This document shows, piece by piece, positions 2,003-28,265 of a stretch of 31,056 bases of DNA (the first letter of the stretch is position 1; the number at the start of each line of letters is the position of its first letter). A model generated the notes under the pieces. The model searched no databases. It saw nothing but the letters and a program-made list of their open reading frames with translations, and was not told where the DNA came from. The stretch is taken from positions 1 to 31,056 of IMG/VR virus record IMGVR_UViG_3300049479_000152, one strand, 5' to 3'. The translations under genes were made by a program, and so were the position numbers. The DNA comes from a virus.

Positions 2003-2223
2003 CGCCGTTCCCCCTTCCAATTGACCCTTACTTTCGAAAAGAGATAGTCTTCATGTGGATATGCGATATCGAGGATCGACTAAAGCTGGAAGATCTTGAA
2101 GGCGCAAAACAGAGTTGGAAAACTGCTCAGGAAATTTACTTGTCTCTGCCGCCTGGCGAAGGTTCCGAGTCGATTGAAAAGCAGCTTGTTGACGCGAGGG
2201 TAAAACTTGACAGATTCACTTAG
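1999..2223 (+). CDS. small hypothetical protein
   Basis: A 74-aa product if it starts at ATG 1999, which overlaps the preceding stop as ATGA. The frame is also open to an ATG at 1939, but that start would overlap the upstream gene by 64 bases, so 1999 is preferred. The protein begins MTPFPLPIDPYFRKE and has a helical, charged second half (CDIEDRLKLEDLEGAKQSW), with a KTAQEIYLSLP segment that could form a helical hairpin. No family is recognised. Its last codons contain a copy of the GGGTAAAA motif (2198-2205), so the promoter of the tail operon appears to lie inside this gene. Confidence 0.6.
   Translation: MTPFPLPIDPYFRKEIVFMWICDIEDRLKLEDLEGAKQSWKTAQEIYLSLPPGEGSESIEKQLVDARVKLDRFT
2198..2205 (+). 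promoter_or_regulatory. candidate late promoter core GGGTAAAA (site 1)
   Basis: Exact GGGTAAAA 27 bases before the tail chaperone ATG (2232). It is part of an 18-base string, CGAGGGTAAAACTTGACA (2195-2212), repeated exactly at 8697-8714 before the portal gene. It is the only site lying well inside a coding frame. The role is inferred from position and recurrence. Confidence 0.5.
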
Positions 2224-2231
2224 CAATTACT

Positions 2232-2561
2232 ATGCGAACCATTTCAACAGATGCTGGACAACCAACTCCGGCAGCGGACAAAAAACAAAAGCAGCTCGAA
2301 ACATTCTCCACTAAGATTTCAGACGGTCGAGAGATTCAAATCCGCGAAATGACTGGCCGCGATCTCCTGTATATGGAGAAAGAACTTGGCAAAGCCGGTG
2401 ACGTTGAGCGAGGTATGAAGATCATCGAGCGCCTGATTGTAGGCTCCGACAAGATCACTTACGACGAAATTCTTGACCTCGGCGTGAGAGACTTCAAGAA
2501 ACTCAGCGACCTCGTTGCCAAGGCAAGCGGATCCGATGAGGAAGACACCGACCCAAACTAA
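2232..2561 (+). CDS. tail assembly chaperone, short form
   Basis: A 109-aa protein, expected to coat or chaperone the tape measure during tail assembly. The middle contains SDGREIQIREMTGRDLLYMEKEL, the SDGR-x-hydrophobic ... R-x-x-TGRDL pattern typical of phage tail assembly (gpE/TAC-like) proteins. The C-terminus is acidic (GSDEEDTDPN). The frame ends directly after CCCAAAC with TAA (2559-2561), and the next frame (-1) is open across this point, so this is the unshifted product of a frameshift pair. It is the first gene of the tail block, after candidate promoter site 1. No strong Shine-Dalgarno is visible. The family call rests on motif and on the frameshift architecture. Confidence 0.8.
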   Translation: MRTISTDAGQPTPAADKKQKQLETFSTKISDGREIQIREMTGRDLLYMEKELGKAGDVERGMKIIERLIVGSDKITYDEILDLGVRDFKKLSDLVAKASGSDEEDTDPN

Positions 2562-2980
2562 TCGTTGAAGACCTTGAAGATTTCACGTATCTGCTAAGTT
2601 TCGGTAAGGGTGTTTCCCTTCACGTTCGAGAGCTTTGCCCGAAAGACTTTTATTTTGCGCAACTCCTGCGAAACAAAGAAACCGGGATGGTCCCTTTGAT
2701 CTCCCGGCTCATTCAGAATCACGACGACTTAGCGTATTTCACCCTTCCTCAAACGGAAAAAGTCTTCAAGTGGATTGGGGAAGAGATTATCAACGAAAAA
2801 GTCTTAACGGTCGAAAACTGGCTTGAGGTTTCTTTCCACTTGTGCAAACAACGTTGGGATAGCACTGTAGACTGGTTAGAGAAACAACCGATGAGCAAAA
2901 TTCTTGCAATGATCAACATTGTTGAAGATTTTGCGGAAAAGCAAGAGCAAGCGATCAAAAAGAACGCGAGGAAGAGATGA
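2232..2980 (+). CDS. tail assembly chaperone, predicted -1 frameshift fusion
   Basis: Predicted long product of about 249 aa: residues 1-109 of the short form, then a -1 shift on CCCAAAC (2552-2558), continuing from CTA at 2558 to the stop at 2978-2980. The downstream frame is open from 2540 and has no ATG until 2687, although its coding character (LIVEDLEDFTYLLSFGKG ... ELCPKDFYFAQLLRN) clearly starts before that ATG, which argues against independent initiation. The second half is helical and rich in Trp, Glu and Lys. This matches the G/G-T arrangement of lambda and the paired chaperones of Mu-like phages. An independent start at ATG 2687 (97 aa) remains possible but less likely. Confidence 0.75.
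2552..2558 (+). promoter_or_regulatory. -1 ribosomal frameshift slippery heptamer CCCAAAC
   Basis: C CCA AAC fits X XXY YYZ in the zero frame (CCA at 2553, AAC at 2556) and is followed at once by TAA. After a one-base slip both tRNAs can re-pair on CCC and AAA. A Shine-Dalgarno-like GAGGAAG (2538-2544) lies 7 bases upstream, a known stimulator position in the bacterial dnaX frameshift. I see no convincing downstream pseudoknot by eye. Confidence 0.8.
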
Positions 2981-3390
2981 TCAGTTTTCAAGTTAAGAAG
3001 GGCGGTTTCCTTCAGTTTAACCTAGACTGGTGGAAACCTACACAGAAAGAGTGGGCGCCCATTCTCTTGAAAGATCATGCCGTTCCTTGGCGCCAGGAAT
3101 CTGATCCCACTACGGGAAGACCTTGGGCTTCCCTCACACCAAAGTACGCGATTGCGAAACTTCGCAAATACCCTGGTCAACCGATTCTACGGGCAACAGG
3201 GTTCATGCAAAACGAAGCCCAGATTTTACCGAAAGGAGAAGGCTTCGAGGTGAAGGCCGCCCCGTATGGCGTATATCACCAGTTCGGAACTTCAAAGATG
3301 GCTGCGAGGCCGTGGATGGGCGTTCCGGACAAGTCTCTCAAGCAGATTGTTCCGATCGCTTGGAAAAACATTCTCACACAAAAACGTTAA
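2977..3390 (+). CDS. tail completion / virion morphogenesis protein (Mu gpG, P2 S-like)
   Basis: A 137-aa protein. The pattern PWASLTPKYAIAKLRK ... ILRATGFM ... YGVYHQFGTSKMAARPWMGV is the signature of the phage virion morphogenesis / tail completion family: a PW-x-x-L-[ST]-P-x-Y segment, a TG-x-[LM] helix end, then YA-x-x-HQFG and ARP[FW]-x-G. Members act at the top of the tail or at head-tail joining. The ATG overlaps the stop of the chaperone fusion frame by 4 bases, which fits coupling to the frameshifted product. The usual family length is about 130-180 aa, so it appears complete. Confidence 0.85.
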   Translation: MISFQVKKGGFLQFNLDWWKPTQKEWAPILLKDHAVPWRQESDPTTGRPWASLTPKYAIAKLRKYPGQPILRATGFMQNEAQILPKGEGFEVKAAPYGVYHQFGTSKMAARPWMGVPDKSLKQIVPIAWKNILTQKR

Positions 3391-3392
3391 TC

Positions 3393-3767: not shown

Positions 3768-3769
3768 AA

Positions 3770-4132
3770 ATGATTACTCTGCCCTTCCAGCCCCAGTTCA
3801 CCTGGAGGAAACTCGGGTACCAGTACTACACCAATTCTCTTGAGTACCGTGCGGTGCTTGAGTTGAATCCTCAGTGGGACGTTACTGAACTTCCCCCGAT
3901 TGGTGCTCAACTCCTTCTACCCAACCCTGAGAGTTCTTCCGGAAGTTTGCAACAAGCTTCTTTTGTGTCCGGGAACGTTGAAGGGGCACAGGCAGACGAG
4001 ATCTTTCCGTTTGACTCAGAGTCTGAGTATGTTTCGTCGTTGAACAAATATACTCTGCAAGGCGTTGTCTTGCGAGAGTCTCTCAACGGGTATTCGTTTG
4101 ATAGCCTGCCTGCGATTACAGGTGTTCAGTAG
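3770..4132 (+). CDS. gpX/LysM-like tail protein
   Basis: A 120-aa product. The N-terminal 50 residues read W-x-x-LGYQYYTNSLEYRAVLELNPQW ... LPPIGAQLLLP. This fits the compact LysM/tail protein X pattern: an aromatic start, a helix ending in LELNP, then a PIGAQL-hydrophobic-LP strand. In P2 and Mu relatives such proteins sit in the tail or baseplate. The second half is unremarkable and acidic. Its stop (TAG 4130-4132) abuts candidate promoter site 2. The domain call is by eye and moderately sure. Confidence 0.6.
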   Translation: MITLPFQPQFTWRKLGYQYYTNSLEYRAVLELNPQWDVTELPPIGAQLLLPNPESSSGSLQQASFVSGNVEGAQADEIFPFDSESEYVSSLNKYTLQGVVLRESLNGYSFDSLPAITGVQ

Positions 4133-4139
4133 GGTAAAA
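4132..4139 (+). promoter_or_regulatory. candidate late promoter core GGGTAAAA (site 2)
   Basis: Exact match, sharing its first G with the stop codon of the gpX-like gene and lying 102 bases before the tail sheath ATG. It gives the sheath gene a long leader. Confidence 0.5.
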
Positions 4140-4145
4140 GTTAGT

Positions 4146-4211
4146 ACACATTTGTGTCCCAACAGTAGCTCTACGGAGACCACGTAGGAGTCATCCTTGC
4201 CTGCACTACTG
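4146..4211 (+). promoter_or_regulatory. structured leader RNA of the tail sheath gene
   Basis: The leader between site 2 and the sheath ATG contains nested inverted repeats. ACAC (4146-4149) can pair with GTGT (4154-4157). CAGTAG (4163-4168) can pair with CTACTG (4206-4211). Inside that, CTC-TACG (4169-4175) can pair with CGTA-G-GAG (4183-4190) with one bulged G. The outer and inner stems stack without a gap on the 5' side. Function unknown; mRNA stability or translation control are possible. Confidence 0.4.
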
Positions 4212-4241
4212 AAGGGAAAGAAGGAACACCCTCTTAAAAAC

Positions 4242-7200
4242 ATGGCCACATTTTCTCTTGGCGGTGGAACAACCCCCGGAGCTCCTGGTGTATACATCAA
4301 TGAGCGTGCCGGTGTTGTCGCAAACGCTGACGTTGCTAATTTTAGCACTGTTTACATGCTGGTGGAAACCGAAGAAACAGTGCCGGTTACAGTTTTCCCT
4401 TATAACACACCTACTCCGATCACTTCGCTGAACGACTATTTCGCCCTCGTTGGTGGAAGCGTTCCTGAGGCCCGGATTCCCTTGCTGAGCTACAACTGCG
4501 TTAACGAGTTTTTCCAGAATGCTCAGGTTGGTGATCTGCGTGTTGTTCGCGTTGGCACTCCTGATCAGATCGTAGAGATTGAGATTCTTCCTAACGGAAC
4601 CAAGCAGAGCAACGCAGGTCTTCCCTCGAACTTCGAGGCTGGAGACGTTGTTTACGCACAACTTGTAATCAACGGAAATCGCCTCGTAGCAGGCGATGGA
4701 TCTACAGGTTACACCAACGACGGAGAGTGGCTGGGTGTTCCGGTTACAATTCCCGTAGACTACATCCCTGGCGACGAAGTTAACAACCGCAGAATTTCTT
4801 CGGCTATCGCAATTGCGATTGCAGAGGCGATTGAGAGCAACCCGAGTGTTCGTAGCTCCGTCTACGTTCGTGATTTCGGTCTGGTAACTTCGATCAATCC
4901 TCTCTCAAACTCTGAGAATGCTTTCGTAAGCATTGCTGCCGCTACGTTTGACGCTAACGTGAGCGTTGTTCCGCTGGTTCTGCCAGTCGGTGCTCAGTAC
5001 GTCATGATGCAGAATGTTTATGACATTCAGAACATCGTTGGCCAACAGCAGAACCTGGAGCGAGTTCCCCAGGATTACATTCAGTGCATCGCGACCGCTT
5101 TCGACGGTCAGCAAGACCAAGGCTATCTGATCACTCCAACTGCGTACGCTCAGTTTGATGCTGATGGCCGTGCTGCTGTCGGAGCTGCTGCTGCCGATCA
5201 TTGCGCCAACAACAACTACAAGTGGATGGCTCTTGCTGATCCCGGTCCTTTCCTTGTGACCGACATCAACAAGTACAGCGCCTACACACCTCACGAGCCT
5301 GCTGCTGACCTGGTCACCGGAAACAAGTACCTGGTAGACAATGCCATGTACGAATGGGTTGGCACCGATGTCACTTACGACAAGCTCACCTACCAAGCTC
5401 TGATTGCTTCCCCCACGGCAGAAACCGCTATCTCTCAGTCTCGGAGTGCAACTCCTGTGGCCGCTGGTGAGAAAGTTGGCCTGCTGGATTCAGCCACATT
5501 CGAGGTTGATTCAACCGTTGACGACACAATGCTCGTTCTGTCAACTCAGAACTACTGGCCTGTGTCTTATCAGATTCAGGAAGTTACCTTCAGTAACGCC
5601 ACTGGTGACATTCTGAGCACGATTGGGGAAGATGGAACGATCTTTGTAATTGCTCCCCCGTATGATCTGGGGGCAACCGGTGATTACTCGTTTAACAACG
5701 TGTTCTTCGCCTACGACGCACCTAACGCTGTGTCCGTTCTGGATGAAGTCATTGCTGCTGGTGGTTCAATCAACCTGACGACCCCTGCCAATGCGATCAA
5801 CTTTGGCGGAGCCACTGGAACCTGCGACTTCACATACGTTGTTCCTTTCTACAGCCTGCCTCAGACAATTAACGGTCAGACTTCAAACCTTCTGCAGAAC
5901 ATTACTGGGGCCGCTCAGTATGTCAACACACTGCACCTTCCTGCTAGCCTTCAGGATGCTACCGCTAACTACCGTCTGAACTTCGTATCTCGTACAATCC
6001 TGAACCCCGACACTTCCGTGGCTGGTTCTACAGGAGCTTATACTGGCACGGCTCGGGTTACTTGTGTCGCTCACGGCTTGACGAGTGGTCAGAAACTGTA
6101 CTTCACTCAGCCGGTGAAGACCAACGCCGGAGTAAACCTCTTCCGTGCAACGACTAAAGTTTCTGAGGCGCTTTACTACGTTCAGGTGATCGACGCAGAC
6201 ACCTTCTGCCTGGCTGAGAGCTTAACCTCTTACACGGCTTCTTCTTTCGTAACGATTCCGAGCGGAACAACCTCCTTTGTCTCCAGCCCCACAATCTTCT
6301 ACACGAAGGTTCTTGGTGGTGAGGCAACTTCGGCCACTTTGGCTGAACTGTCGGTTATCCCGTTTGTTCGTGCTCGGAAGTACGGTCTGAATAGCGGCCT
6401 GATCGCTTCAGAAGCAGCTGTTGCAACTGCAGCTCCTGCTCCTGCCGCAACCAACCCTGAAGTCTCGATCTTCTTCAACAACAGCTTGACCGCTCTGGGT
6501 GTTGGTTTGATTTCACCTTTCGGTGAGAATTCTACCGCAGGTTGGCTGCCTGAGCTTACTCTTTCAGCCCCCGGTTCTCCTTCCACAACTCTCGAGAACT
6601 GGTACTGCACCCCAACCGTTGACCAGAACTTTGCTTCACAGGCATTCCTGGTTCCTTCCATCGACCCGATTGAAGGCGGTGACTACGAGGCAGATACCAC
6701 TGCTGCTGCGGGTGTTCTTGACACTGCCACCTTGTATGTCACTTCTACCGGTCTCTCAGCAACCGACTCCGGTACCGATATTCAAGCTGTTGTAGATAAA
6801 CTCGTAGGGGTTTACTTCAACGTTACTGTGGCTCCTACTGGCGCCGTTGGCCCTGATGGAGTAACTGAGGTTGCAGTTGGTGATCGGATCGCCGTGACTT
6901 ACAACGGAACCGCTTACGACTGGGTGGTTATCCCTGCTGGTGGCGACTTGAGTGTTGTTGGTCAACCTTGCTACGGCTCACAAGTTGGTCTGAACTTCAC
7001 CCCTGAGGCAACTCCTCCGAGTGCTCTCTGGCGCTTTGACCCAATCACCTCCACCGAAATCATCAGCGATGCGATCCGTGGCGTTGGGTTCAATGGTGTT
7101 CCCCAGGCTGAGTTCATTGAGGCTGGCGTTGACAATGTCAACCGTCTGTACAACGATAGCCAAAGGTACTTCCAACCTTTCGGTTTCATTGCTTACTACG

Positions 7201-7874
7201 GTCCTTACATCGAGAACGCTTCGGGTCAGTGGATTCCTCCTTCACCTTACGTGACCGGAATTGCTCTGCGTCGTTACCGCGCTGAAGGATATCAGTTCCC
7301 GCCTGCTGGTGTCAAGTATCAACTTGCCGACGCAGTGGCAGCTCAGATTCCGATCAACTCGGCTCAGCAAAACCTTCTCAACCCTGACGGTTGCAACGCA
7401 ATCCGTACCCTGCCTGGTTACCCAACCAGCGCGGTGTTTGTCTGGGGCGGAAGAACTCGCGTTAACACTGCTGACGCTCAACAGCGTCTGTACCAGTTCG
7501 TAAACACTCGCGTCATTCTGAACGTTGTTTACGGTTCGCTGAGAAATGCCTTCGATAGCCAGATCTTCAACGTTATCGATGGATTCGGTGTGGCGTTCAA
7601 CCAGATCATTTCGGTTGGTAATAGCGTTCTGAACCAGCTGTACTCTCGTGGTGCTCTGTTCGGCGCTCGCCCAAGCGACGCTTTCCAAGTTATCTGTGAT
7701 GCTCGAATCAACCCTCCTGCCTCACTCGAGAACGGAATCATTAACGCCAAGGTGTTTGTGACTCCTGTCCCGACTCTGGAAAGAATTCAGATCGATCTGA
7801 TCCGCGTTGCCGTTGGTCAAATGCAGAACGAGCTGAACGCTCAAGGACTGGGAACTAACAACACCGGTTTCTAA
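4242..7874 (+). CDS. contractile tail sheath protein, oversized
   Basis: A 1210-aa subunit of the contractile tail sheath. The ATG at 4242 is chosen over a TTG at 4197 because MATFSLGGGTTPGAPGVYINE gives the canonical sheath N-terminal arm. The last 280 residues are classic sheath: VFVWGGRTRVN, QFVNTRVILNVVYGSLRNAF, LYSRGALFGARPSDAFQVIC, and a final strand region VFVTPVPTLERIQIDLI. Common phage sheaths are about 380-700 aa. Here the middle (residues about 400-930) holds extra beta-rich material, including a domain at about 600-690 with VAHGLTSGQKLYF and YYVQVIDADTFCLAES, a module type seen in other phage structural proteins. These extra domains probably decorate the outside of the tail. It has its own candidate promoter and a long folded leader. 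Confidence 0.93.
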   Translation: MATFSLGGGTTPGAPGVYINERAGVVANADVANFSTVYMLVETEETVPVTVFPYNTPTPITSLNDYFALVGGSVPEARIPLLSYNCVNEFFQNAQVGDLRVVRVGTPDQIVEIEILPNGTKQSNAGLPSNFEAGDVVYAQLVINGNRLVAGDGSTGYTNDGEWLGVPVTIPVDYIPGDEVNNRRISSAIAIAIAEAIESNPSVRSSVYVRDFGLVTSINPLSNSENAFVSIAAATFDANVSVVPLVLPVGAQYVMMQNVYDIQNIVGQQQNLERVPQDYIQCIATAFDGQQDQGYLITPTAYAQFDADGRAAVGAAAADHCANNNYKWMALADPGPFLVTDINKYSAYTPHEPAADLVTGNKYLVDNAMYEWVGTDVTYDKLTYQALIASPTAETAISQSRSATPVAAGEKVGLLDSATFEVDSTVDDTMLVLSTQNYWPVSYQIQEVTFSNATGDILSTIGEDGTIFVIAPPYDLGATGDYSFNNVFFAYDAPNAVSVLDEVIAAGGSINLTTPANAINFGGATGTCDFTYVVPFYSLPQTINGQTSNLLQNITGAAQYVNTLHLPASLQDATANYRLNFVSRTILNPDTSVAGSTGAYTGTARVTCVAHGLTSGQKLYFTQPVKTNAGVNLFRATTKVSEALYYVQVIDADTFCLAESLTSYTASSFVTIPSGTTSFVSSPTIFYTKVLGGEATSATLAELSVIPFVRARKYGLNSGLIASEAAVATAAPAPAATNPEVSIFFNNSLTALGVGLISPFGENSTAGWLPELTLSAPGSPSTTLENWYCTPTVDQNFASQAFLVPSIDPIEGGDYEADTTAAAGVLDTATLYVTSTGLSATDSGTDIQAVVDKLVGVYFNVTVAPTGAVGPDGVTEVAVGDRIAVTYNGTAYDWVVIPAGGDLSVVGQPCYGSQVGLNFTPEATPPSALWRFDPITSTEIISDAIRGVGFNGVPQAEFIEAGVDNVNRLYNDSQRYFQPFGFIAYYGPYIENASGQWIPPSPYVTGIALRRYRAEGYQFPPAGVKYQLADAVAAQIPINSAQQNLLNPDGCNAIRTLPGYPTSAVFVWGGRTRVNTADAQQRLYQFVNTRVILNVVYGSLRNAFDSQIFNVIDGFGVAFNQIISVGNSVLNQLYSRGALFGARPSDAFQVICDARINPPASLENGIINAKVFVTPVPTLERIQIDLIRVAVGQMQNELNAQGLGTNNTGF

Positions 7875-7879
7875 ACTAA

Positions 7880-8544: not shown

Positions 8545-8705
8545 TGTACTCTCTACAAGAAAAAGACATCTATCGACTAATCTCAGCTTGTCGGTACTAC
8601 ATGAGCCAAACATCAAGCGAGAAGATCTACGACGAATACTCGAGAATCCTGGCTAAACTTGAAAATTATATCTCGCAAAACTTCCCCGAGCTGCCTCGAG
8701 GGTAA
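8544..8705 (+). CDS. 53-aa hypothetical protein
   Basis: A short ORF, MYSLQEKDIYRLISACRYYM ... NFPELPRG, starting in a TGATG overlap with the gp25-like gene and filling the gap before the portal promoter. The composition is plausible for a real helical protein (Tyr, Glu, Lys and Ser rich) and the start is coupled. Its stop TAA (8703-8705) lies inside candidate promoter site 3. No family recognised. Without this ORF the 197-base gap would be the longest in the window. Confidence 0.55.
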   Translation: MYSLQEKDIYRLISACRYYMSQTSSEKIYDEYSRILAKLENYISQNFPELPRG

Positions 8706-8707
8706 AA
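8700..8707 (+). promoter_or_regulatory. candidate late promoter core GGGTAAAA (site 3)
   Basis: Exact match 34 bases before the portal ATG, within the 18-base string shared with site 1. The identical flank includes TTGACA, but no matching -10 is obvious at a standard spacing. Confidence 0.5.
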
Positions 8708-8741
8708 CTTGACATAAGGACTAGAACTACCAGAGGATTGG

Positions 8742-10139
8742 ATGGCTCAGAGATTTAAGACAGCCCCAGTGCCATCGGGAGAGGTAGCTCGTTATACTTC
8801 TGACCCCTATAATCTATCTTCGATCTACATGTTCGGGTCTAGCAGCCCGTTCACTGGTCAAGGTAATACGATTGTCAGGCCTAACGATGATCTCCTCATT
8901 CAAAAAGGCGGGAACCGTGCGCTAGTTGTATACCAGCGCCTTCTTTACGACGAGCAAGTTCAGGGCTGTTTTGCCAAACTTGTTCAAGAAATTACCTCCC
9001 GTCCATGGTACGTTGAGCAATATAGTGACAAACCCGGCGACGTAGCTGTAAGAGATTTCGTAAGCGAAGTGCTTGAAGAAATTCCTCTTGACGACATTTA
9101 CAAGGGACTTGCGGAAGCAATCATCACAGGGTTCTCCGTCGGAGAAGTGATGTGGAAGAAAACGAAAAGAGGCGTTATTCCGTTTGATGTACGGATGCGT
9201 GATCAACGTCGTTTTGTTTTCCAGGAAAAGGAAGATGCCCAAACGGGTTTCACAATGCGCTGCCTGACATTTAACCGAATGTTCGAAGGTGTTGAGCTTC
9301 CGACGCGCAAATTCATTGTCAATCGGTACTGGGTTTCTCACAATGGCGACCCTTACGGTTCATCCTTAGGCCGAATCTTGTACCCGCTCGTCAAGTTCCG
9401 TCGCAGGGCGATTGAGTCCTACGTGCTTTACGGCGACCGCTACGCCACGCCGACAGCCGTTGCGAAAGCCCCTTTGAGCGCAAGTACGAAAGAAATCGAC
9501 ACGTTGTACGACCATCTTTCCAACTTGAGCCAGGAGACGGCAATGATCCTCCCGGAGGGTTACGAGTTAGAGTTCGTAACGCCGTCCGGAAGCCCCGATG
9601 TGTTCAAAAACCTGATTGACTACATCGACAAAGAAATCAGCGTGTTGATTTGCGGAGAGAACGAAGCGGGGCAAGCTGAGGCTGGTTCCCGTGCTTCCTC
9701 CCAGGTTGCGAATGTTGTCCGAGTCGTGAAGGCGTCAGAACTTTCTGAGATCATTTCACAAAATCTTACGCAAACTCTCATTCGGTGGATCGTTGACCTG
9801 AACTTCGGAACTGACGTCGCTGCTCCCGTTCTTACTCGGGAGTTCCGAATCGAGGAATCAACTCTTACGATGCCGGACGTTTCTCTGCTTATTCAATCTG
9901 GTTTCACGCCGAAGAAAGAATGGCTGGAGAGACACTTCCGTGTTGAGTTGGAAGAGAAGAAAGAAAGTGGTGGCCCTGCTGACACCGCTTCGGCAACGAC
10001 TTACAACCCTGAAGAAGATCAGGACCTGTTCGGTTCAATTTTCGGGGATCAAAGTGGAACTGCGACCGAAGAAACTCCCCTCCCCGGGGAGGAGTCAGCA
10101 GACCAGCAGGAAACCTTGATTGCTGAGCAAGAAGGGTAA
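8742..10139 (+). CDS. portal protein, Mu gp29 / DUF935 type
   Basis: A 465-aa protein expected to form the dodecameric portal through which DNA enters and leaves the head. Seen: YQRLLYDEQVQGCFAKLVQEI, then ITSRPWYVE near residue 85, SVGEVMWKK, RMRDQRRFVF, then HNGDPYGSSLGRILYPLVKFRRRAIESY and YGDRYATPTAVAKAP, the DUF935 portal signature, followed by an acidic C-terminal tail of about 55 residues (GPADTASATTYNPEEDQDLF to EQEG). Length is near the family norm of about 450-520. GAGGATTGG before the ATG offers a usable Shine-Dalgarno. The protease and head morphogenesis genes follow in the order found in Mu-like phages. Confidence 0.9.
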   Translation: MAQRFKTAPVPSGEVARYTSDPYNLSSIYMFGSSSPFTGQGNTIVRPNDDLLIQKGGNRALVVYQRLLYDEQVQGCFAKLVQEITSRPWYVEQYSDKPGDVAVRDFVSEVLEEIPLDDIYKGLAEAIITGFSVGEVMWKKTKRGVIPFDVRMRDQRRFVFQEKEDAQTGFTMRCLTFNRMFEGVELPTRKFIVNRYWVSHNGDPYGSSLGRILYPLVKFRRRAIESYVLYGDRYATPTAVAKAPLSASTKEIDTLYDHLSNLSQETAMILPEGYELEFVTPSGSPDVFKNLIDYIDKEISVLICGENEAGQAEAGSRASSQVANVVRVVKASELSEIISQNLTQTLIRWIVDLNFGTDVAAPVLTREFRIEESTLTMPDVSLLIQSGFTPKKEWLERHFRVELEEKKESGGPADTASATTYNPEEDQDLFGSIFGDQSGTATEETPLPGEESADQQETLIAEQEG

Positions 10140-10141
10140 AA
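10134..10141 (+). promoter_or_regulatory. candidate late promoter core GGGTAAAA (site 4)
   Basis: Exact match overlapping the portal stop codon (TAA 10137-10139), 25 bases before the GTG start of the protease/scaffold gene. Confidence 0.5.
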
Positions 10142-10166
10142 AATGTTATCAGATCCCTTATAGACT

Positions 10167-12548
10167 GTGTTCACTAAAAGAATTCACGTATTTCGTGCGG
10201 GTGATCAGACCTCTGCCCAAGGAATCAAGCGGACATTCTCTCCAGAAGATCTTCAGCAAGTTGTCGACACATATGACCCTTCGGTCCATGAAGCTCCCAT
10301 AGTTCTTGGCCACCAGGGTGATAACGACAGTTTGCCTTCTTTTGGGTGGATCCAAGGATTTTCAAGAGAGGGACAAAATCTTTACGCAGATGTCTCTTTT
10401 ACGGACACCGCTAAAGATTTGGTCAAGAACGGTCACTACCGAAAAGTATCAATTTCCTTCTACTCCCCTGATAGCCAAATCAACCCGCACGGGGGAAAGT
10501 GGAGCGCAAGGCACCTGGCCTTGCTGGGGGCATCTCCCCCGGCTGTTAAAGGACTCGAACCTTTCTCATTTAATGAGGCAGAGGGGTGCTTTGACTTCGC
10601 AGTGACTTTGTCCCCGGACCAAATCTTTGATGACGAACTCGGTCCTACCCTGATCGTTGAAAAGAGCCCTCTCGAGGTTCTTCGCGAAAAACTTGAGGAA
10701 GTTCGACAAGATGTTTCATCCGCTGTCAAAGATCTTCAAGAGTCTGGCGATACTCAGAAGGAAACTGGCGTGGATGAAGCGGCTGGTGCACAAGCTCCGG
10801 CCGAAATAACCAGCCCCGAGGAAAACCAACAATTTACGGAGGGCGCCAAAACCAACGAAATCACTCAGCAGACGGCTGAACTTGAAGACCAATTCCCAGA
10901 GGAACAATTTATGGAAGACGGAAAAATCAGCCGTAAGCACGCCAAAGGTGCCCACGGCCAAGTAATGCAGGTTGTAGAAAACGTCTACGACGAGCAACAC
11001 AAAGAGCTGCCCCCTGCTCTTAAAAAGAAAGCCGAAGAAATGAAGGCCAAAGCCAAGGCTAACCCTGGCGAAAAGGTTGAAATGGAAGAAGGCGACGAAA
11101 TGGACTATGATGAGTCCGGTCGTTATGAAACAGCCCGTTCATCTGACAACGGTTACGCCGACCGGATGAGAACAGGCAAGGAAGGCAAAGGCGGTGTTGG
11201 CGACGACCGCATGAAAACTTCTAAGAGCAGTGAGCAGGAAGCCGATCGCGTTAGCGTTGCCAAGAACTCTGAGCAGGATTCCGATCGCAAAAGGACTGCC
11301 AAAGATGGCTCAGATAACGCAACTGGTGAATCCCGTTGGGCCGGTCAAGCCGATGCTGAAGATCGCACCATGAACGGCGATCAGTACGACACCGACGCTG
11401 ACAGCTACCCTGAACCGAATCAGCCTAAAACTGCTTCCGGTTCTAACCCTGCTGGCCGCGAAGATGCTAACACCAAGATTCCTACCGAAACCGAAGAATC
11501 GCCTGACAACGAAGTGTTCGCAGTCAGCACCATCAACGTTATGTCTGATGGAAGCATGCGCGTAATGCGTCAAAAGAGCAGCGATGGTCGTCAAGCCACC
11601 AAGGGCGGCAAGATTGACCACGCCGAGCCTGAAGCAGACGAGGTAACTTCCGAGCTGGGCGTAACTGCGATGGGCGAAGTTGACGATCTGACCCAAGGCA
11701 AAGCCAAACTCAAGAAAGGTCAACTGGAGCCTGGTCACTTTGAAGGTGGTGTTGCCGAAATCACCGGTCCTGACGGTGTGTTCGCAGAGGGTTACAAAGG
11801 AGAGAAGAAATCTTCCAAGAAGCAACTCACTCCTGGTGCAATGGATGAGATTGACGAAGCTGCTCAAGTTGTTAGTCCCGAAGGCGCTTTCGCTGAGGAC
11901 AATCTGAGTGGTGATTTTGAAGGTGGCCCTAATCAAACCGCCAAGCGTTCCGGAGGCGTTTTCGCTGAAGAGCACGGTGAGAAGAAGAGTCCTTACACCA
12001 AGACTGGATTCGGTTCCACTTACGAGGAAGACGGCGATGACGACGCCGACGAAGAGGACTACAACGAACTTTCCGCTGACCATTGTGGAATGGATTACGG
12101 CATGGGTTCAATGGCCCAAGCCAAGCCGGACGGTTTCCCCGCCGCCATCTTCGAGGAGCTCAACCGCCTGAAGAAAGAGCACTCCGAACTGCAGCGTCGC
12201 TTCGCTGAAGAGAAGATGAATGCCCGCAAGGCCAAGATCGCTTCTTTCGTTGAGTCACTCTACGAAGATGGTCGCCTGACCGATGGCATCATGCCTCAGT
12301 CCGAGCTGCAAAGCTACTGCGAAGGGCTTGACTTCGGAACTCTTGAGTTCTCCGAAGGTGAAACTGCCGCTACGAAGCTGCTTGGCCTGCTGAGCAAGCT
12401 TCCTCCGATGGTTTACTACGATGAGGTCGCCGGTGGAACTTTCCAGTTCGCTGAGGAAGATCTTGACCCTCACGCAAAAGCTCTGAAACTGGTTGAATCC
12501 GAAGGAATCGACTACGTTGAAGCTATCAAGCGCACAATGTACAACTGA
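10167..12548 (+). CDS. capsid maturation protease with scaffold-like acidic region (Mu gpI-like)
   Basis: A 793-aa product from GTG 10167; a typical gpI start (FTKRIHVFRAGDQTSAQGIKR) follows. The N-terminal 140 residues match the Mu I-type head protease: FSPEDLQQVVDTYDP, HEAPIVLGH, SFGWIQGF, LYADVSFTD, YRKVSISFY, and HLALLGASPPAVKGLEPF. From about residue 180 to 660 it is highly charged, Glu/Asp/Lys/Ser rich and low in hydrophobics. A helical region follows (FEELNRLKKEHSELQRRFAEEKMNARKAK, about 660-690, coiled-coil-like), then a folded tail ending YVEAIKRTMYN. This suggests protease and scaffold in one chain. FAE recurs (codons at 11781, 11889, 11962, 12201, 12447) and may be a cleavage signal. 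The usual Mu gpI is about 360 aa, so this is about twice as long. Confidence 0.82.
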   Translation: MFTKRIHVFRAGDQTSAQGIKRTFSPEDLQQVVDTYDPSVHEAPIVLGHQGDNDSLPSFGWIQGFSREGQNLYADVSFTDTAKDLVKNGHYRKVSISFYSPDSQINPHGGKWSARHLALLGASPPAVKGLEPFSFNEAEGCFDFAVTLSPDQIFDDELGPTLIVEKSPLEVLREKLEEVRQDVSSAVKDLQESGDTQKETGVDEAAGAQAPAEITSPEENQQFTEGAKTNEITQQTAELEDQFPEEQFMEDGKISRKHAKGAHGQVMQVVENVYDEQHKELPPALKKKAEEMKAKAKANPGEKVEMEEGDEMDYDESGRYETARSSDNGYADRMRTGKEGKGGVGDDRMKTSKSSEQEADRVSVAKNSEQDSDRKRTAKDGSDNATGESRWAGQADAEDRTMNGDQYDTDADSYPEPNQPKTASGSNPAGREDANTKIPTETEESPDNEVFAVSTINVMSDGSMRVMRQKSSDGRQATKGGKIDHAEPEADEVTSELGVTAMGEVDDLTQGKAKLKKGQLEPGHFEGGVAEITGPDGVFAEGYKGEKKSSKKQLTPGAMDEIDEAAQVVSPEGAFAEDNLSGDFEGGPNQTAKRSGGVFAEEHGEKKSPYTKTGFGSTYEEDGDDDADEEDYNELSADHCGMDYGMGSMAQAKPDGFPAAIFEELNRLKKEHSELQRRFAEEKMNARKAKIASFVESLYEDGRLTDGIMPQSELQSYCEGLDFGTLEFSEGETAATKLLGLLSKLPPMVYYDEVAGGTFQFAEEDLDPHAKALKLVESEGIDYVEAIKRTMYN

Positions 12549-12556
12549 GGTTTGAA

Positions 12557-13210: not shown

Positions 13211-13218
13211 GGGTAAAA
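13211..13218 (+). promoter_or_regulatory. candidate late promoter core GGGTAAAA (site 5)
   Basis: Exact match starting directly after the stop of the head morphogenesis gene (TAA 13208-13210), 74 bases before the decoration protein ATG. It would transcribe the leader RNA at 13222-13273. Confidence 0.55.
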
Positions 13219-13221
13219 CCA

Positions 13222-13273
13222 TTCAGTTTAACTGGGTGTAAAAACAAGTCCCAGAGTAAACAAATTGAAGTCC
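13222..13273 (+). ncRNA. structured leader RNA, copy 1 (decoration gene)
   Basis: Three nested pairings: TTCA (13222-13225) with TGAA (13266-13269), GTTTA (13226-13230) with TAAAC (13257-13261), and CTGGG (13232-13236) with CCCAG (13250-13254), with a 13-base loop. It shares TTCAGTT at the start, GGGTGTAA plus AAGTCCCA in the centre, and TTGAAGTC at the end with copy 2 at 13781-13838. It is a cis-acting leader element. Function unknown. Confidence 0.5.
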
Positions 13274-13292
13274 TCATACTTTGGAGAATTCC

Positions 13293-13772: not shown

Positions 13773-13778
13773 TAATTA

Positions 13779-15438: not shown

Positions 15439-15441
15439 GTA

Positions 15442-15449
15442 GGGTAAAA
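15442..15449 (+). promoter_or_regulatory. candidate late promoter core GGGTAAAA (site 6)
   Basis: Exact match directly after the terminator and 30 bases before ATG 15480. A terminator followed at once by this motif is the strongest context argument that it starts transcription. Confidence 0.6.
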
Positions 15450-23434: not shown

Positions 23435-23442
23435 GGGTAAAA
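23435..23442 (+). promoter_or_regulatory. candidate late promoter core GGGTAAAA (site 7)
   Basis: Exact match directly after the TAA of the 1001-aa gene, 23 bases before ATG 23466, followed by CCCCTATAACGC. Confidence 0.55.
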
Positions 23443-23605
23443 ACCCCTATAACGCTTGTAGCAGGATGGCCAGGCAGGGTGATACGGGCAAGGCACCCGG
23501 AGTTTACATTAACGAGGGTATTTGGGTAAGACCTTCGACGAAGAAACCTGACTTCGGTGTCGCGGGACCTCAACGAGTCTTTACGGTTCCGGCACCATCA
23601 CCTCC
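23435..23605 (+). repeat. duplicated promoter-anchor cassette, copy 1
   Basis: About 170 bases covering the promoter motif, leader, start codon and first 45 or so codons of the adhesin gene. They align without gaps, by eye, to 24628-24798 (offset 1193). Similarity stops sharply upstream of the GGGTAAAA motif and just after the Pro-rich linker. Most differences are third-codon changes. Confidence 0.85.
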
Positions 23606-24611
23606 TCCACCACCTCCGGCAGAAGCACTAATCACATTAACTGCCTCGCCTACCGCAGTCGTTAATACCGGGGCAACTAACATTGTTTTCAGCTTCACGC
23701 GGACCGGGTCAACTGTTGACCCGCTGGCTATTAATTTCAACGTTGGGGGGACGGCGATTCTTGGAACGGACTACACTCAGTCTGGTGCCGCTTCTTTCTC
23801 GCCAACCAGCGGAAGCATTCTCATTCCTGCAGGGCAAACCACTGGTCAAATTACGATTGACCCAGACCCAGCCGCCTCGATCGTATCCAGCGAAACTGTT
23901 GAAATTACCTTGGTTTCGGGTTCCGGGTACACGCCGGTAACGATCAACCCAGTGGTTGGAACCATCTACGAGGATATACTCCCTGTTGCAATACAGCAGA
24001 ATATCTATATTCGAAGCATTCTTGAAACCATCGGTGGAAACCTGCTGACAGGGGAGGTTAACACCCCTGGGCCCGATCCAACCCTTCCGGTAGTTTCCAT
24101 GCCACCCGTTGTAGGTACGGGGGGACCAAGTAACCAAATTTTTGAGCTTATCAGTGATTCTGTTGGGTCTTACGGTATCTTTATCCTGGGCTCAAACGGT
24201 GATTTTGAGTACACTGTTGATTTAACCAACCCGATAGTCCTTAACCTCAGCCCTTACACCCCTCCTTACTACACCGGTGTGAGTGAACCATTCCACTTCC
24301 GTGTTACAGACCTCGCCGGAAACACTAGCGAGGGTTTTGTAAACGTTTCTATACAGGCTAGTTACACAAGGGTCGCTGCTGCTTTCACTTTTGACCCCAT
24401 TCCGCCCGTTCCCCCTAACCAAGGAAAGAAAATGTGGCATCTAAACGTCCCCCTTATATCCACCTTAGCCGATCCGAACTACACATTCTTCGGCTTAAAC
24501 TACCCATGGACCGGACCAGTAACAGATCCTCCCCCATACATCACAGGTTATACCGACCAGGCTGGAAATTGGCTTATAGGTGGCCCTCCCCCTAGTGGAT
24601 TCTTTGACTGA
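23466..24611 (+). CDS. adhesin/fibre-like protein with sheath-type N-terminal motif and Calx-beta domain
   Basis: A 381-aa product from ATG 23466 (GCAGGATGG context, same as its paralogue at 24659). The frame is open further upstream, but that part overlaps the preceding gene. Layout: residues 1-45, an anchor with KAPGVYINEGIW and RVFTVPAP; a poly-Pro linker at about 42-50; a Calx-beta-like domain at about 52-165 (LTASPTAVVN, FSFTRTGSTVDPLAINFNVG, LGTDYTQSG, ILIPAGQTTGQITI, SETVEITLVSG); a second beta domain at about 215-305 resembling cadherin/VCBS-type adhesin repeats (GDFEYTVDLTNPIVLNLSPY, HFRVTDLAGNTSEGFVNVSI); and a Pro/Gly/aromatic end. Such domains bind cells or other virion parts. It probably attaches to the tail through the N-terminal motif (inference). 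Confidence 0.75.
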   Translation: MARQGDTGKAPGVYINEGIWVRPSTKKPDFGVAGPQRVFTVPAPSPPPPPPAEALITLTASPTAVVNTGATNIVFSFTRTGSTVDPLAINFNVGGTAILGTDYTQSGAASFSPTSGSILIPAGQTTGQITIDPDPAASIVSSETVEITLVSGSGYTPVTINPVVGTIYEDILPVAIQQNIYIRSILETIGGNLLTGEVNTPGPDPTLPVVSMPPVVGTGGPSNQIFELISDSVGSYGIFILGSNGDFEYTVDLTNPIVLNLSPYTPPYYTGVSEPFHFRVTDLAGNTSEGFVNVSIQASYTRVAAAFTFDPIPPVPPNQGKKMWHLNVPLISTLADPNYTFFGLNYPWTGPVTDPPPYITGYTDQAGNWLIGGPPPSGFFD

Positions 24612-24627
24612 GCCCTAGACTGTGAGC

Positions 24628-24635
24628 GGGTAAAA
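24628..24635 (+). promoter_or_regulatory. candidate late promoter core GGGTAAAA (site 8)
   Basis: Exact match 23 bases before ATG 24659, followed by CCTTATAATGC. It is part of the duplicated cassette. Confidence 0.55.
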
Positions 24636-24798
24636 AACCTTATAATGCTTGTGATAGGATGGCTAGGCAGGGTGATACGGGCAAAGCGCCCGGAGTTTAC
24701 ATTAACGAGGGCATTTGGATAAGACCTTCGGCGAAGAAACCTGATTTCGGCACCTTGGCGCCGCAAAGAGTTTTTACGGTTCCGGCACCACCGCCTCC
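24628..24798 (+). repeat. duplicated promoter-anchor cassette, copy 2
   Basis: Gap-free counterpart of 23435-23605, carrying the promoter motif, leader, ATG and anchor codons. After the shared VPAP linker the two genes diverge completely, so the cassette has acquired different distal domains. Confidence 0.85.
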
Positions 24799-25171
24799 CT
24801 CTCCCGCATTTTCTACAGCAGTTACCCCTTCAAGTGCAGGAGAAGGGAGCACTTTTACAGCCTCTGTCAACACAACCAACGTTGCAGATGGCACTGTAAT
24901 CCCCTTTATAGTAACAGGTAGCGCAAAACTTGTCACAACCAGTGGCAATATCACAATCACCGGAAACTTTGGCTCAACCCCGATTCTGACACAAGTTGAC
25001 CCCGGGACGAACAACGATGTCGCTACTTTCACACTGCAAGGAATAGCCACCGGCAAGCCTAGCACTTCGGCAAATTTTACAATCACCGACATTCCTACGC
25101 TGTATAACTTCGAAGCCTCCTGGCGAAACTGCAATAGCCTGACATCTTTCACCGTTAATACCCCTGAATAG
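24659..25171 (+). CDS. fibre anchor protein, first part of split repeat fibre
   Basis: A 170-aa product. Residues 1-45 repeat the anchor of the 23466 protein (KAPGVYINEGIW, RVFTVPAP). A Pro/Ser linker follows, then a beta domain of about 90 residues (TPSSAGEGSTFTASVN to STSANFTITD), then one unit of the array found in the next gene (ASWRNCNSLTSFTVNTPE), and then TAG (25169-25171). The next frame, one base out of phase, carries on with the repeat array from ATG 25174. This looks like one fibre gene interrupted by a small insertion (removal of the 5 bases TAGCC at 25169-25173 would rejoin the frames), or a natural two-part fibre translated by coupling. Confidence 0.75.
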   Translation: MARQGDTGKAPGVYINEGIWIRPSAKKPDFGTLAPQRVFTVPAPPPPSPAFSTAVTPSSAGEGSTFTASVNTTNVADGTVIPFIVTGSAKLVTTSGNITITGNFGSTPILTQVDPGTNNDVATFTLQGIATGKPSTSANFTITDIPTLYNFEASWRNCNSLTSFTVNTPE

Positions 25172-25173
25172 CC

Positions 25174-28100
25174 ATGCCATCCTTCAACTGCGACCCTAAT
25201 GTAAATACGACCGGGGTGGTAGATTTCTCTGACGGTTGGCGTAATTGCACGTCTATAGTCAATTTTCCGCCCAAAGATTTGAGTTCGGGAGTTAACTTCT
25301 ACCGAACCTGGGACGGCTGCTCTGCGATGCAAAGTATTGCAACACTAAACCTGTACTATCAGTTAGCCGACGCAACCGAGTTCGTCTCAACGTGGGAGGG
25401 TTGTTCCAGCCTCACAAGTTTTCAACCAAACCTGAACCTGAGTTCAGCCAATCTTTTCGACCGAACCTGGAAAAACTGCACCAGTTTGACCAGTTTTCCG
25501 TTTACAGTTATTGAATCAGGGACCACGTTTACGGGAACTTGGGCGGGGTGCAATTCTCTAACGTCTTTCCCTTTGCTTGACTTCAGTTCTGCCACAGTTC
25601 TTGGAAATGGTTTTGGGGGAGGGGCTTGGGAAGGTTGCACTAGTCTGGCATCTTTTCCCGCTATAGACACATCTTCCGCCACGGGTTTTACTAGAACTTG
25701 GAGAAATTGCTCGTCTCTGACCTCTTTCCCGCAGATCGATACGGGGTCCGGACTCAGTTTTTATGAGACCTGGTACGGGTGCGGCGGGTTAACCTCGTTC
25801 CCAACCATCAATACCAGCAATGGGGTGGGTTTCCTTAGAGCTTGGTGGGGTTGCAATAGTCTTACATCATTCCCCCAACTAGATTTCAGTAATGCTTACA
25901 ATCTGGAAGAGACATGGGGAGAGTGTTATTCACTCACATCATTCCCTCAAATAACATTGAAACCTCCGGGTAGTCCGGGTCAACCACTAAACTCATTAGT
26001 GAGAACGTGGTTAAATTGCGAAAGTTTAACTTCATTCCCTTTACTGAATACTTCGGGTATCACATCTTTCTCGGGAACTTGGCAAAATTGTTACGATCTT
26101 GAAACTTTCCCCCCCCTGGATACGAGTTCAGCTACCAGCCTTTATAGGGCTTGGATGCGTTGCTCGTCCCTGACTTCTTTCCCACTAATCGACACGTCTT
26201 CGGTGGGTAATTTAAACGATACTTGGCGAGAGTGTAATTCACTTACTTCTTTCCCGCTCATAGACACAAGCAGTTGTACTACTTTAGGGTACACCTGGTT
26301 GGATTGTAGTGGTCTTACTTCTTTCCCGCTTCTCAACACAAGTAATGTTACAACTTTTGACGGGGCATGGAGAAACAACTCAAGTCTTACATCTTTCCCA
26401 CTGATTGATACCAGTTCAGGGTCAGTGTTTGGGGGCCAAAATAATTTCCAAAGTCTCGGATTTACCGGAACCTGGCAAGGTTGCACCGGCCTGACTTCCT
26501 TCCCCGCTCTGAACTTTGACAACGGCACGATTTTTGAGGCAACTTGGCTTAACTGCACAAACCTAGCCGACTTTCCCCCTAATCTTTTCGACAACTGTGC
26601 AGCTACTAACTTCACCGTGGCTTGGCGGGAATGTGCGCTTACAGCTGAGAGCATCGAAAACATTCTGGTTTCCATTGATGCCGGCGGAGCCCTTAACGGA
26701 ATTCTCGATATTTCGTTAGGAACTAACGCTGCCTACGGAGACTGGACTGCCCCCGCTATTGTCGCTTTCGACAACTTGGAGGCCAAAGGTTGGAACATTT
26801 TGTACAACAATTTGGCGAACCGTTGGTTAGCCTACAGCACGATTGACGAAGGGGCTGTCAACAGTCACAACTCGGCCGTGGGGCCAGGAGGGGAGATCTA
26901 CTCTTTCATTGCCAACAGCACAGGGTCAGAGTTGAGTAAATTCTCAATTTTTGGAAATTTGGAGTGGTCAAAAACTATTTCACCACCCAACACTCAGTAT
27001 GAATGGGGTCCGGTTGCGGTTTCTCAAACGGTTCACTCACTGCCGGACGACAAAGTTTTAACTGTCGTAGACGACAACAACGGAAATCACCACTTCATTT
27101 GTCTCAACTCTTCCGGTCAGACGATTTACAATCAAGCTCTTGACGGCAGTTACGAACAGAACTGGGAACTTCGTGCACTGAATAATGCCAGAACTCAGAT
27201 GCTTGTCTCGGAGTTGCAGCAGTATCAACCTCACGTCTGCAATTTAATTGACGTTACGAATGGCTCGTTCCTAAAACGATTCTCTTTCTCGCGACCGGAC
27301 AGTCTACCTGTTTGGCGCATTATTGCCGCTGATCAAAAACCGAACGGAAACTGGGTTTTGGCTGGAATTCTAAATGGACTTCCTTACGACCGGTTTTTGG
27401 TAGAGGTAGACGAAACGTTTACAAACGTTGTTCAAGCGGTCGATCTTGGTGGCATTTCTATATACGCTATTCTCTTTCATCCTGAGTCGGGGGGCTATCT
27501 CCTTCTAGAAGGTAGCAACGGAAGAATTCACCTCTTAGATGAGTTTTTCCAACCGATTGAAACAAGGACTTTCTCGGGTTGGGCAACATCTATGCAACCC
27601 TCGACCACTGGTTTCTATATTTGGAACAGTTACGTCAACTTTTACTCGGACCTTGGAATGCCTGGTTGGCCAAGCCTTGTGAATTTGATTGACTACGACT
27701 GGAACCTGAATGAAGTGAGTTTCTTCACACAGGTGAACGGAATAAGCCCCTACTCTGCCGCAGCGAGTCTCGATACGGTAAACCAGCGTGTGATTATTAC
27801 GCCAAGTGGAATTGGCCTGTATGGTGGTGGTGGTGGAACCGCTGCTTACAAATACGTTTCCTCTCTAGATTTCCTTCAGCCCTTGGCTGCAGGTGGAACT
27901 CCAATCTTTGCTGACAACCCGCCGGGTTATGGTCTCTACGCTCGCAGTGAAATCAACCCAACCACTTTGCCAGTAATTGGTCCTCCCACGATTACCGCGA
28001 CAAGTGTGTCCATGAGCATAGTTCCAGAATCGAATGTTCCAACAATTGCCCCTACCCTTAGCTTCCAAAACTCAGCTCAAACTTTCGATTTGGTGGTTTC

Positions 28101-28212
28101 CACCGTACCTGGACCGCCTGTTCCGCCACCAGTTGCGTCCTCGTCATGGTTCCAATCTGTTGACGACTGGAAATATAATGCCGACGCGACACAAATCTGG
28201 CCTGGGCCTTAA
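25174..28212 (+). CDS. BspA/DUF285-like repeat fibre protein
   Basis: A 1012-aa product; ATG 25174 lies 2 bases after the previous stop with no visible Shine-Dalgarno, so translation probably depends on coupling. Residues about 20-490 hold 19 units of about 23 aa, consensus TW-x-x-C-x-SLTSFP-x-[IL]-[DN]TSS, a variant of the BspA/DUF285 leucine-rich-like repeat with Trp where MF is usual. The array ends in a typical cap (LTAESIENILVSIDAGGALNG, then FDNLEAKGWNILYN). Residues about 510-910 look like a beta-propeller (repeated hydrophobic-strand/turn units such as KVLTVVDDNNGNHHFICLN and GGYLLLEGSNGRIHLLDEF). The C-terminus is Thr/Pro-rich and ends SSWFQSVDDWKYNADATQIW. It is likely a host-recognition fibre or surface protein. 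Confidence 0.8.
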   Translation: MPSFNCDPNVNTTGVVDFSDGWRNCTSIVNFPPKDLSSGVNFYRTWDGCSAMQSIATLNLYYQLADATEFVSTWEGCSSLTSFQPNLNLSSANLFDRTWKNCTSLTSFPFTVIESGTTFTGTWAGCNSLTSFPLLDFSSATVLGNGFGGGAWEGCTSLASFPAIDTSSATGFTRTWRNCSSLTSFPQIDTGSGLSFYETWYGCGGLTSFPTINTSNGVGFLRAWWGCNSLTSFPQLDFSNAYNLEETWGECYSLTSFPQITLKPPGSPGQPLNSLVRTWLNCESLTSFPLLNTSGITSFSGTWQNCYDLETFPPLDTSSATSLYRAWMRCSSLTSFPLIDTSSVGNLNDTWRECNSLTSFPLIDTSSCTTLGYTWLDCSGLTSFPLLNTSNVTTFDGAWRNNSSLTSFPLIDTSSGSVFGGQNNFQSLGFTGTWQGCTGLTSFPALNFDNGTIFEATWLNCTNLADFPPNLFDNCAATNFTVAWRECALTAESIENILVSIDAGGALNGILDISLGTNAAYGDWTAPAIVAFDNLEAKGWNILYNNLANRWLAYSTIDEGAVNSHNSAVGPGGEIYSFIANSTGSELSKFSIFGNLEWSKTISPPNTQYEWGPVAVSQTVHSLPDDKVLTVVDDNNGNHHFICLNSSGQTIYNQALDGSYEQNWELRALNNARTQMLVSELQQYQPHVCNLIDVTNGSFLKRFSFSRPDSLPVWRIIAADQKPNGNWVLAGILNGLPYDRFLVEVDETFTNVVQAVDLGGISIYAILFHPESGGYLLLEGSNGRIHLLDEFFQPIETRTFSGWATSMQPSTTGFYIWNSYVNFYSDLGMPGWPSLVNLIDYDWNLNEVSFFTQVNGISPYSAAASLDTVNQRVIITPSGIGLYGGGGGTAAYKYVSSLDFLQPLAAGGTPIFADNPPGYGLYARSEINPTTLPVIGPPTITATSVSMSIVPESNVPTIAPTLSFQNSAQTFDLVVSTVPGPPVPPPVASSSWFQSVDDWKYNADATQIWPGP
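25228..26640 (+). repeat. protein-coding repeat array, 19 units of about 69 bases
   Basis: Diverged tandem units encoding W-x2-C-x-SLTSFP. One unit (about 26371) has Asn for Cys, and three units carry insertions (near 25600, 25970 and 26420). A twentieth unit lies in the upstream gene at about 25118-25170. DNA identity between units is low while the protein pattern is kept, so the array is old and under selection. Confidence 0.85.
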
Positions 28213-28230
28213 CCTAACCACAAGGCTGTC

Positions 28231-28249
28231 GCACACAGTTTCCGTGTGC
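28231..28249 (+). other. hairpin after fibre gene
   Basis: GCACAC (28231-28236) can pair with GTGTGC (28244-28249) with a 7-base loop, followed by CCCC-CGAG-GGGG and then promoter site 9. There is no T-tract, so a terminator role is unproven. Confidence 0.3.
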
Positions 28250-28257
28250 CCCCGAGG

Positions 28258-28265
28258 GGGTAAAA
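28258..28265 (+). promoter_or_regulatory. candidate late promoter core GGGTAAAA (site 9)
   Basis: Exact match 22 bases before ATG 28288, downstream of a hairpin, at the head of the last gene block. Confidence 0.55.

Follow-up and report, generated by a model that had tools for sequence, protein, structure and literature searches.

The 8-mer GGGTAAAA, which occurs nine times in a 31,056-base stretch of viral DNA (IMG/VR record IMGVR_UViG_3300049479_000152, positions 1 to 31,056, hereafter the window), is best read as a -10-type promoter element recognized by a phage-encoded sigma factor of the type of gp152 or gp142, the two sigma factors encoded by Synechococcus phage S-CBWM1. We put the probability of this reading, whichever of the two is the reader, at roughly 0.78, and GGGTAAAA very probably acts as the start switch for late genes of the S-CBWM1-like cyanophages, a group that has received little study. 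We note that these functions are predicted by sequence comparison. The window encodes head, tail, and baseplate genes. Its DNA polymerase shares 58.5% identity with that of S-CBWM1 and 39.5% with that of S-TIM5, and its portal protein shares 64% identity with the S-CBWM1 portal. S-CBWM1 is a complete genome of 139 kb, and S-TIM5 is also titled complete. One scan of viral contigs found 196 stretches with a portal relative, and the portal on one contig (G001) was identical to that of the window.

All nine copies were found at the exact coordinates given in the first-pass annotation, which had proposed the 8-mer as a late promoter core, and all lie on the forward strand, with none on the reverse. 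GGGTAAAA ranked first among window 8-mers by observed over expected counts, and dinucleotide shuffles of the window contained a mean of 1.09 copies on both strands combined (maximum 4), with none of 100 shuffles reaching nine. The distances from motif end to start codon were 26, 102, 34, 25, 74, 30, 23, 23, and 22 bases, in agreement with the spacing first reported (22–102, and 22–34 for seven of nine); we note that the start codons at 4242, 13293, and 23466 are ATGs chosen inside longer open reading frames. Other details of the annotation also held: eight of the nine sites are at or beside a stop codon or intergenic, the exception being 2198, which lies within the last 26 bases of the preceding open reading frame; two sites share an 18-base string (2195–2212 and 8697–8714); and a terminator-like hairpin is present 3 bases before 15442. 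One correction applies to the count of nine: the sites at 23435 and 24628 lead near-identical gene starts, leaving about eight independent sites. In the adjacent genes involved (23466–24611 and 24659–25171), the 5' ends and promoters are almost the same, probably because the gene start was duplicated, and the next open reading frame (25174–28212) encodes a long protein with visible repeats.

Relatives of the window phage showed the same enrichment and strand bias. In S-CBWM1, GGGTAAAA was the most over-represented 8-mer, with 33 forward copies and one reverse (1.33 expected), and 22 of the 33 were located 20–45 nucleotides ahead of an annotated gene start, compared with a mean of 1.05 and a maximum of 5 in 2000 null draws. 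Only five of the 33 were wholly within a gene, though 90% of the genome is coding. Across 80 loci around portal relatives, we counted 299 forward copies and no reverse copies. In 16 related contigs, taken whole, 273 copies ran along the direction of the portal gene and three ran opposite, with a backwards-read control at 30; these totals were summed over rows, and some of the contigs are near-duplicates. S-TIM5 showed no enrichment, with eight and four copies on its two strands. Additionally, certain non-coding strings, among them GATGTGAAAGATT..CACTGTCCCA and GCGGTAAACCGCCCTTTAC, recur before several genes of S-CBWM1 (L001–L003), in some cases directly before GGGTAAAA copies, and these are perhaps terminators or small RNAs.

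Conservation was concentrated at the genes that carry the motif in the window. When upstream regions of orthologues were compared, exact GGGTAAAA was present in 267 of 300 at the nine site genes versus 6 of 434 elsewhere. This footprint counts exact copies in the 140 nucleotides upstream of tblastn matches reaching the first six residues, with whole-contig duplicates removed by hand and near-identical strains kept. The motif was retained by 36 of 36 orthologues of the gene at 2232, 38 of 39 of the tail sheath gene, 58 of 79 of the portal gene, 73 of 75 of the protease gene, 32 of 41 of the gene at 13293, and 27 of 27 of the gene at 15480, and the genes at 23466, 24659, and 28288 had one relative each for comparison. 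At the portal, GGGTAAAA was found within 70 nucleotides in 56 of 80 loci. Among distinct motif-bearing sequences, mean top-base frequency was 0.44–0.61 across the 20 flanking bases on each side. The motif was missing from 21 of 79 portal upstream regions. Six of these were inspected (L135, on the same contig as L022, and L025, L032, L043, L045, and L048), and the stretches upstream of the portal resembled coding sequence of another gene, lying between promoter and portal; the motif may be located further upstream. An origin by chance or base composition has in its favor only the shortness of the word, and it is refuted by the shuffles, the strand counts around portal relatives, and the orthologue footprint, leaving it a negligible probability.

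The sequence downstream of the motif contained a putative initiator at a fixed distance. Once duplicates were removed, 155 sites in eight genomes or contigs gave the logo [AC]GGGTAAAA[CT][CT][AT]..[CT]A, and the position +14 from the first G was A in 100 of the 155 sites (p = 1.9e-24), mostly after a pyrimidine. In the window, pyrimidine-A was found exactly at +14 in eight of nine sites and one base later in the ninth. A was frequent at +14 whatever the distance to the start codon, with values of 0.76, 0.71, 0.58, and 0.54 in the four distance bins (129 of the 155 sites binned), and we therefore interpret the A as going with the motif. If that A is taken as the transcription start (+1), GGGTAAAA covers -14 to -7, where a -10 element would lie. 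The same alignment showed no positional signal from -60 to -2 upstream of GGGTAAAA. A -35 box at flexible spacing was considered and rejected, as 4- to 6-mers at -32 to -11 before the 155 sites were no richer than chance when spacing was left free. Together, an initiator 7 bases downstream and the lack of an upstream signal suggest a promoter element of the -10 type that is not accompanied by a -35 box.

The nine sites, all on the forward strand, precede genes including those for the tail sheath, portal, head maturation protease, and a tail-chaperone-like protein, while five of the nine downstream genes are without a clear family. The copy at 2198–2205 precedes the gene at 2232, which is tail assembly chaperone-like (PF10109 match at 2.6e-5, just under the cut-off), with a predicted +1 at 2212. 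The copy at 4132–4139 precedes the tail sheath gene (4242–7874; predicted +1 at 4146), that at 8700–8707 the portal gene (8742–10139; predicted +1 at 8714), and that at 10134–10141 the head maturation protease gene (10167–12548; predicted +1 at 10148). The site at 13211–13218 lies before the gene at 13293, which adjoins MCP, with a predicted +1 at 13225. The site at 15442–15449, which follows the terminator-like hairpin, lies before the gene at 15480, and its initiator A is probably 15457. The remaining sites, at 23435–23442, 24628–24635, and 28258–28265, precede the genes at 23466, 24659, and 28288, with predicted +1 positions at 23449, 24642, and 28272, respectively.

Two sites of the window are far from their genes, and both of the leaders concerned contained conserved RNA structure. 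The sheath 5' leader (4146–4241, forward strand, counted from the predicted +1) folds as a 5'-terminal hairpin plus three-way junction and showed compensatory changes in 15 of 21 pairs. Across the alignment, 92.8% of cells were paired versus 74.4% in shuffles, and sliding the partners by 1–3 columns lowered pairing to 36–44%; none of 500 shuffles reached the observed value on four of five measures, and one of 500 did on the fifth. This alignment comprised 19 of 32 distinct leaders, leaving out 12 that were shorter or differently built as well as that of S-CBWM1, and leaders without the motif had been dropped from the set. We note that the helix set was written after the alignment was inspected, and that in five of the 19 rows the first pair is either missing or preceded by a base. 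Since the conserved structure starts about at the +1 predicted from the initiator, it gives independent support for the start site. The leader at 13225–13292 (forward strand) contained a conserved hairpin (13232–13236 with 13250–13254) and an invariant TTGAAGTC near the start codon. Compensatory change was seen in two of its five pairs and 100% of cells were paired (22 of 25 distinct leaders), with three of the five measures exceeding shuffles and two not. Rfam had no family at the gathering threshold anywhere in the window, and on the sheath leader it gave five matches at E up to 10, far below the cut-offs of those families. The sheath leader may be a new cis-acting regulatory RNA in the mRNAs of structural genes.

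The position of the motif near start codons on the coding strand could also be explained by an RNA-level signal, in mRNA processing or translation initiation, with no promoter involved. However, the copies in the window are mostly 22–34 nucleotides from the start codon, too far upstream for a ribosome site, and a translation signal would leave unexplained the S-CBWM1 copies located 31 and 10 nucleotides before tRNA genes (19573 and 24755). In addition, the A at +14 follows the motif at varied distances to the start codon, and the motif precedes the conserved sheath structure instead of being enclosed by it. We consider an RNA-level signal highly improbable. Overall, the reading as a promoter core, as first proposed, is supported by the initiator, the footprint in relatives, the covarying leader that begins at about the predicted +1, and the sigma genes that related phages encode.

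We infer late timing from the genes served (portal, protease, sheath, MCP neighbor, and tail genes) and from a block of S-CBWM1 without copies. Within this block (26.7–47.4 kb), none of 38 forward gene starts had a copy 15–100 nucleotides upstream, compared with 27 of 135 elsewhere, though the block was selected after the gap was seen.

Sigma factor genes were present in S-CBWM1 and related contigs, and the earlier proposal of a lineage-specific sigma factor remained the best reading. The two S-CBWM1 proteins differed in their best models. For gp152 these were SigBFG (2.8e-14) and SigF, both below cut-off; against TIGR02980 it scored 53.4 bits for a cut-off of 234.35, which makes it related to, but outside, the curated subfamily. 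For gp142 the best models were general sigma-70/ECF and SigK, with SigBFG weaker (4.9e-10) and a weak match to region 4. All 19 members of the gp152 alignment matched the sigma region 2 family PF04542 at E <= 1, and the match in S-CBWM1 gp152 was over the cut-off. Orthologues of gp152 (56–57% identity) were found in contigs G001, G003, and G006, and relatives of gp142 in G003, G006, and G012, while 12 of 16 viral contigs scanned, most of them shorter, had no sigma match. A scan of close relatives with gp142 returned S-CBWM1 itself only, and profile searches reached more. Among 14 further contigs from this lineage (G017–G030), 13 carried a sigma of the gp152 clade (E < 1e-90) and all 14 had strand-biased GGGTAAAA; eight other contigs with more distant sigma matches contained 0–4 copies.

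The predicted structure of gp152 was compared with known sigma domains. Sigma domain 2 was clearly recognizable in the model (Z up to 12.6), and a helix-turn-helix occupied the region 3 position. Region 4 models matched S-CBWM1 gp152 only at residues 119–136, which is the region 3 place, and a profile of its C-terminal part found no sigma among PDB structures. Structural alignments of gp152 extended into sigma domain 4, but with a root-mean-square deviation above 20. In a Foldseek search against viral models, S-TIM5 SigF ranked third for gp152, with low TM-scores. A loss of -35 reading is supported by the promoter DNA, while the protein comparisons point both ways.

Without a partner element, the 8-bp core would also fit a simple binding site for a DNA-binding activator or for a single-subunit phage RNA polymerase. 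Against such a site, the initiator distance is that of a -10 element, the core matches the -10 boxes of group 3 sigma factors, and the relatives encode sigma factors. The annotations of S-CBWM1 and S-TIM5, in which many genes are hypothetical, name no phage RNA polymerase, and no profile search was made for one. We regard an activator or phage polymerase as just as improbable as an RNA-level signal. In the favored mechanism, a phage-encoded sigma, most likely of the SigF/SigB-like gp152 type, would take over the host RNA polymerase core, and its region 2.4 would recognize GGGTAAAA at about -14 to -7, with no need of a -35 box. Transcription would then start at the pyrimidine-A 7 bases downstream, ahead of the virion gene blocks.

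Gene and motif content in the S-TIM5 (Aurunvirus) lineage suggest a sister system with a different 8-mer. S-TIM5 encodes a SigF with 25% identity to gp152. Of 74 upstream regions chosen by hand at its virion genes and their neighbors, 22 contained GTTTAAAG (0.8 expected). In four contigs whose gp152-like sigma matched at E near 1e-63, GGGTAAAA occurred one to four times, and the three of them that were examined (G034, G036, and G038) contained GTTTAAAG and had no detected gp142. GTTTAAAG was the top 8-mer of G034 (23 versus 1.9 expected), and it was also enriched in G036, G038, and S-TIM5 (L004–L007) without ranking first there. From 103 copies, we retained 68 by requiring an open start codon within 60 nucleotides and removing near-duplicates. 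In 41 of these 68, GTTTAAAG was 20–30 nucleotides before the start, and no second box was found. We also considered a SigB-like -35 role for GTTTAAAG and rejected it, given the start codon 20–30 nucleotides downstream in those 41 sites and nearer in five. At such distances a transcription start would not fit in between, and GTTTAAAG is thus read as a -10-type element. We propose it as the putative late promoter motif in the S-TIM5 lineage, sigma and motif having changed together between the two lineages.

Which of the two sigma factors reads GGGTAAAA was weighed against this background. A reader of the gp142 type (ECF/SigK-like) would leave gp152 to serve other, middle promoters, and it fits the distribution of gp142, which was found in five of six GGGTAAAA records (not in G001, a contig that may end before that place) and was detected in none of five S-TIM5-like records. 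The S-TIM5-like records, however, have only a gp152-type sigma and yet carry an 8-mer at a similar distance to start codons, which makes gp152 the likelier reader in the lineage of the window too. In addition, gp152 rather than gp142 has SigBFG and SigF as best models, and GGGTA is the -10 sequence of SigB. The S-CBWM1 gp142 gene itself lies behind the variant AGGTAAAA, a placement more in keeping with a target than with a master regulator. We therefore think a gp142-type reader unlikely, although it takes up an appreciable minority of the probability given to a phage sigma at the outset, and our analysis points to gp152. The window phage itself presumably encodes gp152, although the record covers 31 kb only.

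Several observations weigh against a late -10 element read by gp152. In the bin of sites 28–34 nucleotides from the start codon, A was more common at +15 (0.69) than at +14 (0.58). Because gp142 tracks GGGTAAAA nearly as strictly as gp152 does, co-occurrence alone cannot pick the reader. Confidence in the gp152 structure model is intermediate (mean pLDDT 68), and a copy-free gap as long as that in S-CBWM1 has P = 0.18 under uniform placement. The initiator was also diffuse in S-TIM5 relatives, so that a register shared with that lineage rests on the distance to start codons.

Taken together, these patterns could be joined into one scenario, to which we assign somewhat less than an even chance as a whole. 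Two sister lineages with a gamma-type DNA polymerase would use a captured SigF-type sigma without a -35 box for late transcription, with sigma and -10 element having co-diverged (GGGTAAAA with gp152, GTTTAAAG with S-TIM5 SigF), without gp33 or gp45 partners, and with sheath-type late mRNAs carrying a new structured leader. If true, late transcription from a -10 element alone would have evolved a second time, independently of T4, and the system would operate without T4-style clamp coupling if gp152 alone suffices. An unannotated 8-mer would become a testable regulon with predicted start sites in a widespread cyanophage group, with two candidate specificity factors named. The paired change of sigma and motif in two lineages would also provide a natural experiment on how region 2.4 reads a -10 box.

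Among the titles and abstract openings covered, we found no report of GGGTAAAA as a promoter, though the genome papers for S-TIM5 (Sabehi 2012) and S-CBWM1 (Xu 2018) were not covered and may mention it. The late promoter consensus of T4 is TATAAATA, and the motif described here differs from it, as the first-pass annotation had stated; S-CBWM1 contained no copies of the T4 consensus. Excerpts of PMC2988020 describe T4 late transcription as using an 8-bp promoter in the -10 place with no -35 element, where the sigma function is split between gp55 and gp33 and is activated by the clamp gp45. The system proposed here is alike in having an 8-bp promoter in the -10 place without a -35 box, a phage factor of the sigma70 family, and virion genes as those served. 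It is unlike in the motif itself, GGGTAAAA, and in a candidate sigma whose best models are of the SigF/SigB kind. The gp33 family (PF16805) was detected in none of eight records at E <= 1, among them S-CBWM1 and S-TIM5 as those titled complete, with no T4-like positive control run and with divergent versions able to escape, and it matched under the cut-off in 7 of 14 control genomes. The gp45 clamp family (PF02916) was likewise detected in none of the eight records at E <= 1, again with no T4-like positive control and with bacterial-type clamps not searched. Given the different motif and the lack of detected gp33 and gp45 families, we do not file this system as a T4-type member.

The core of the motif matches -10 boxes of SigB and SigF promoters. 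The Bacillus subtilis SigB promoter is given as GTTTAA-N15-GGGTAT in an excerpt of PMC9847131, and part of a review (PMC2758279) gives the Synechocystis SigF promoter as TAGGC (-32) and GGTAA (-12) and groups SigF with SigB. The cores GGGTA and GGTAA in the -10 or -12 place are shared with our motif, and SigBFG and SigF are the best models of the candidate sigma, whereas the -35 GTTTAA or -32 TAGGC partner is missing here and the use is by a phage for virion genes. According to an excerpt of PMC5780444, the Microcystis phage Ma-LMM01 uses SigA-like promoters throughout, so the GGGTAAAA system does not appear to be a general cyanophage solution. The S-TIM5 lineage differs from the GGGTAAAA lineage in the letters of its motif, its diffuse initiator, and the lack of a detected gp142, but resembles it in having an 8-mer before virion genes, a gp152-like sigma, and no second box.

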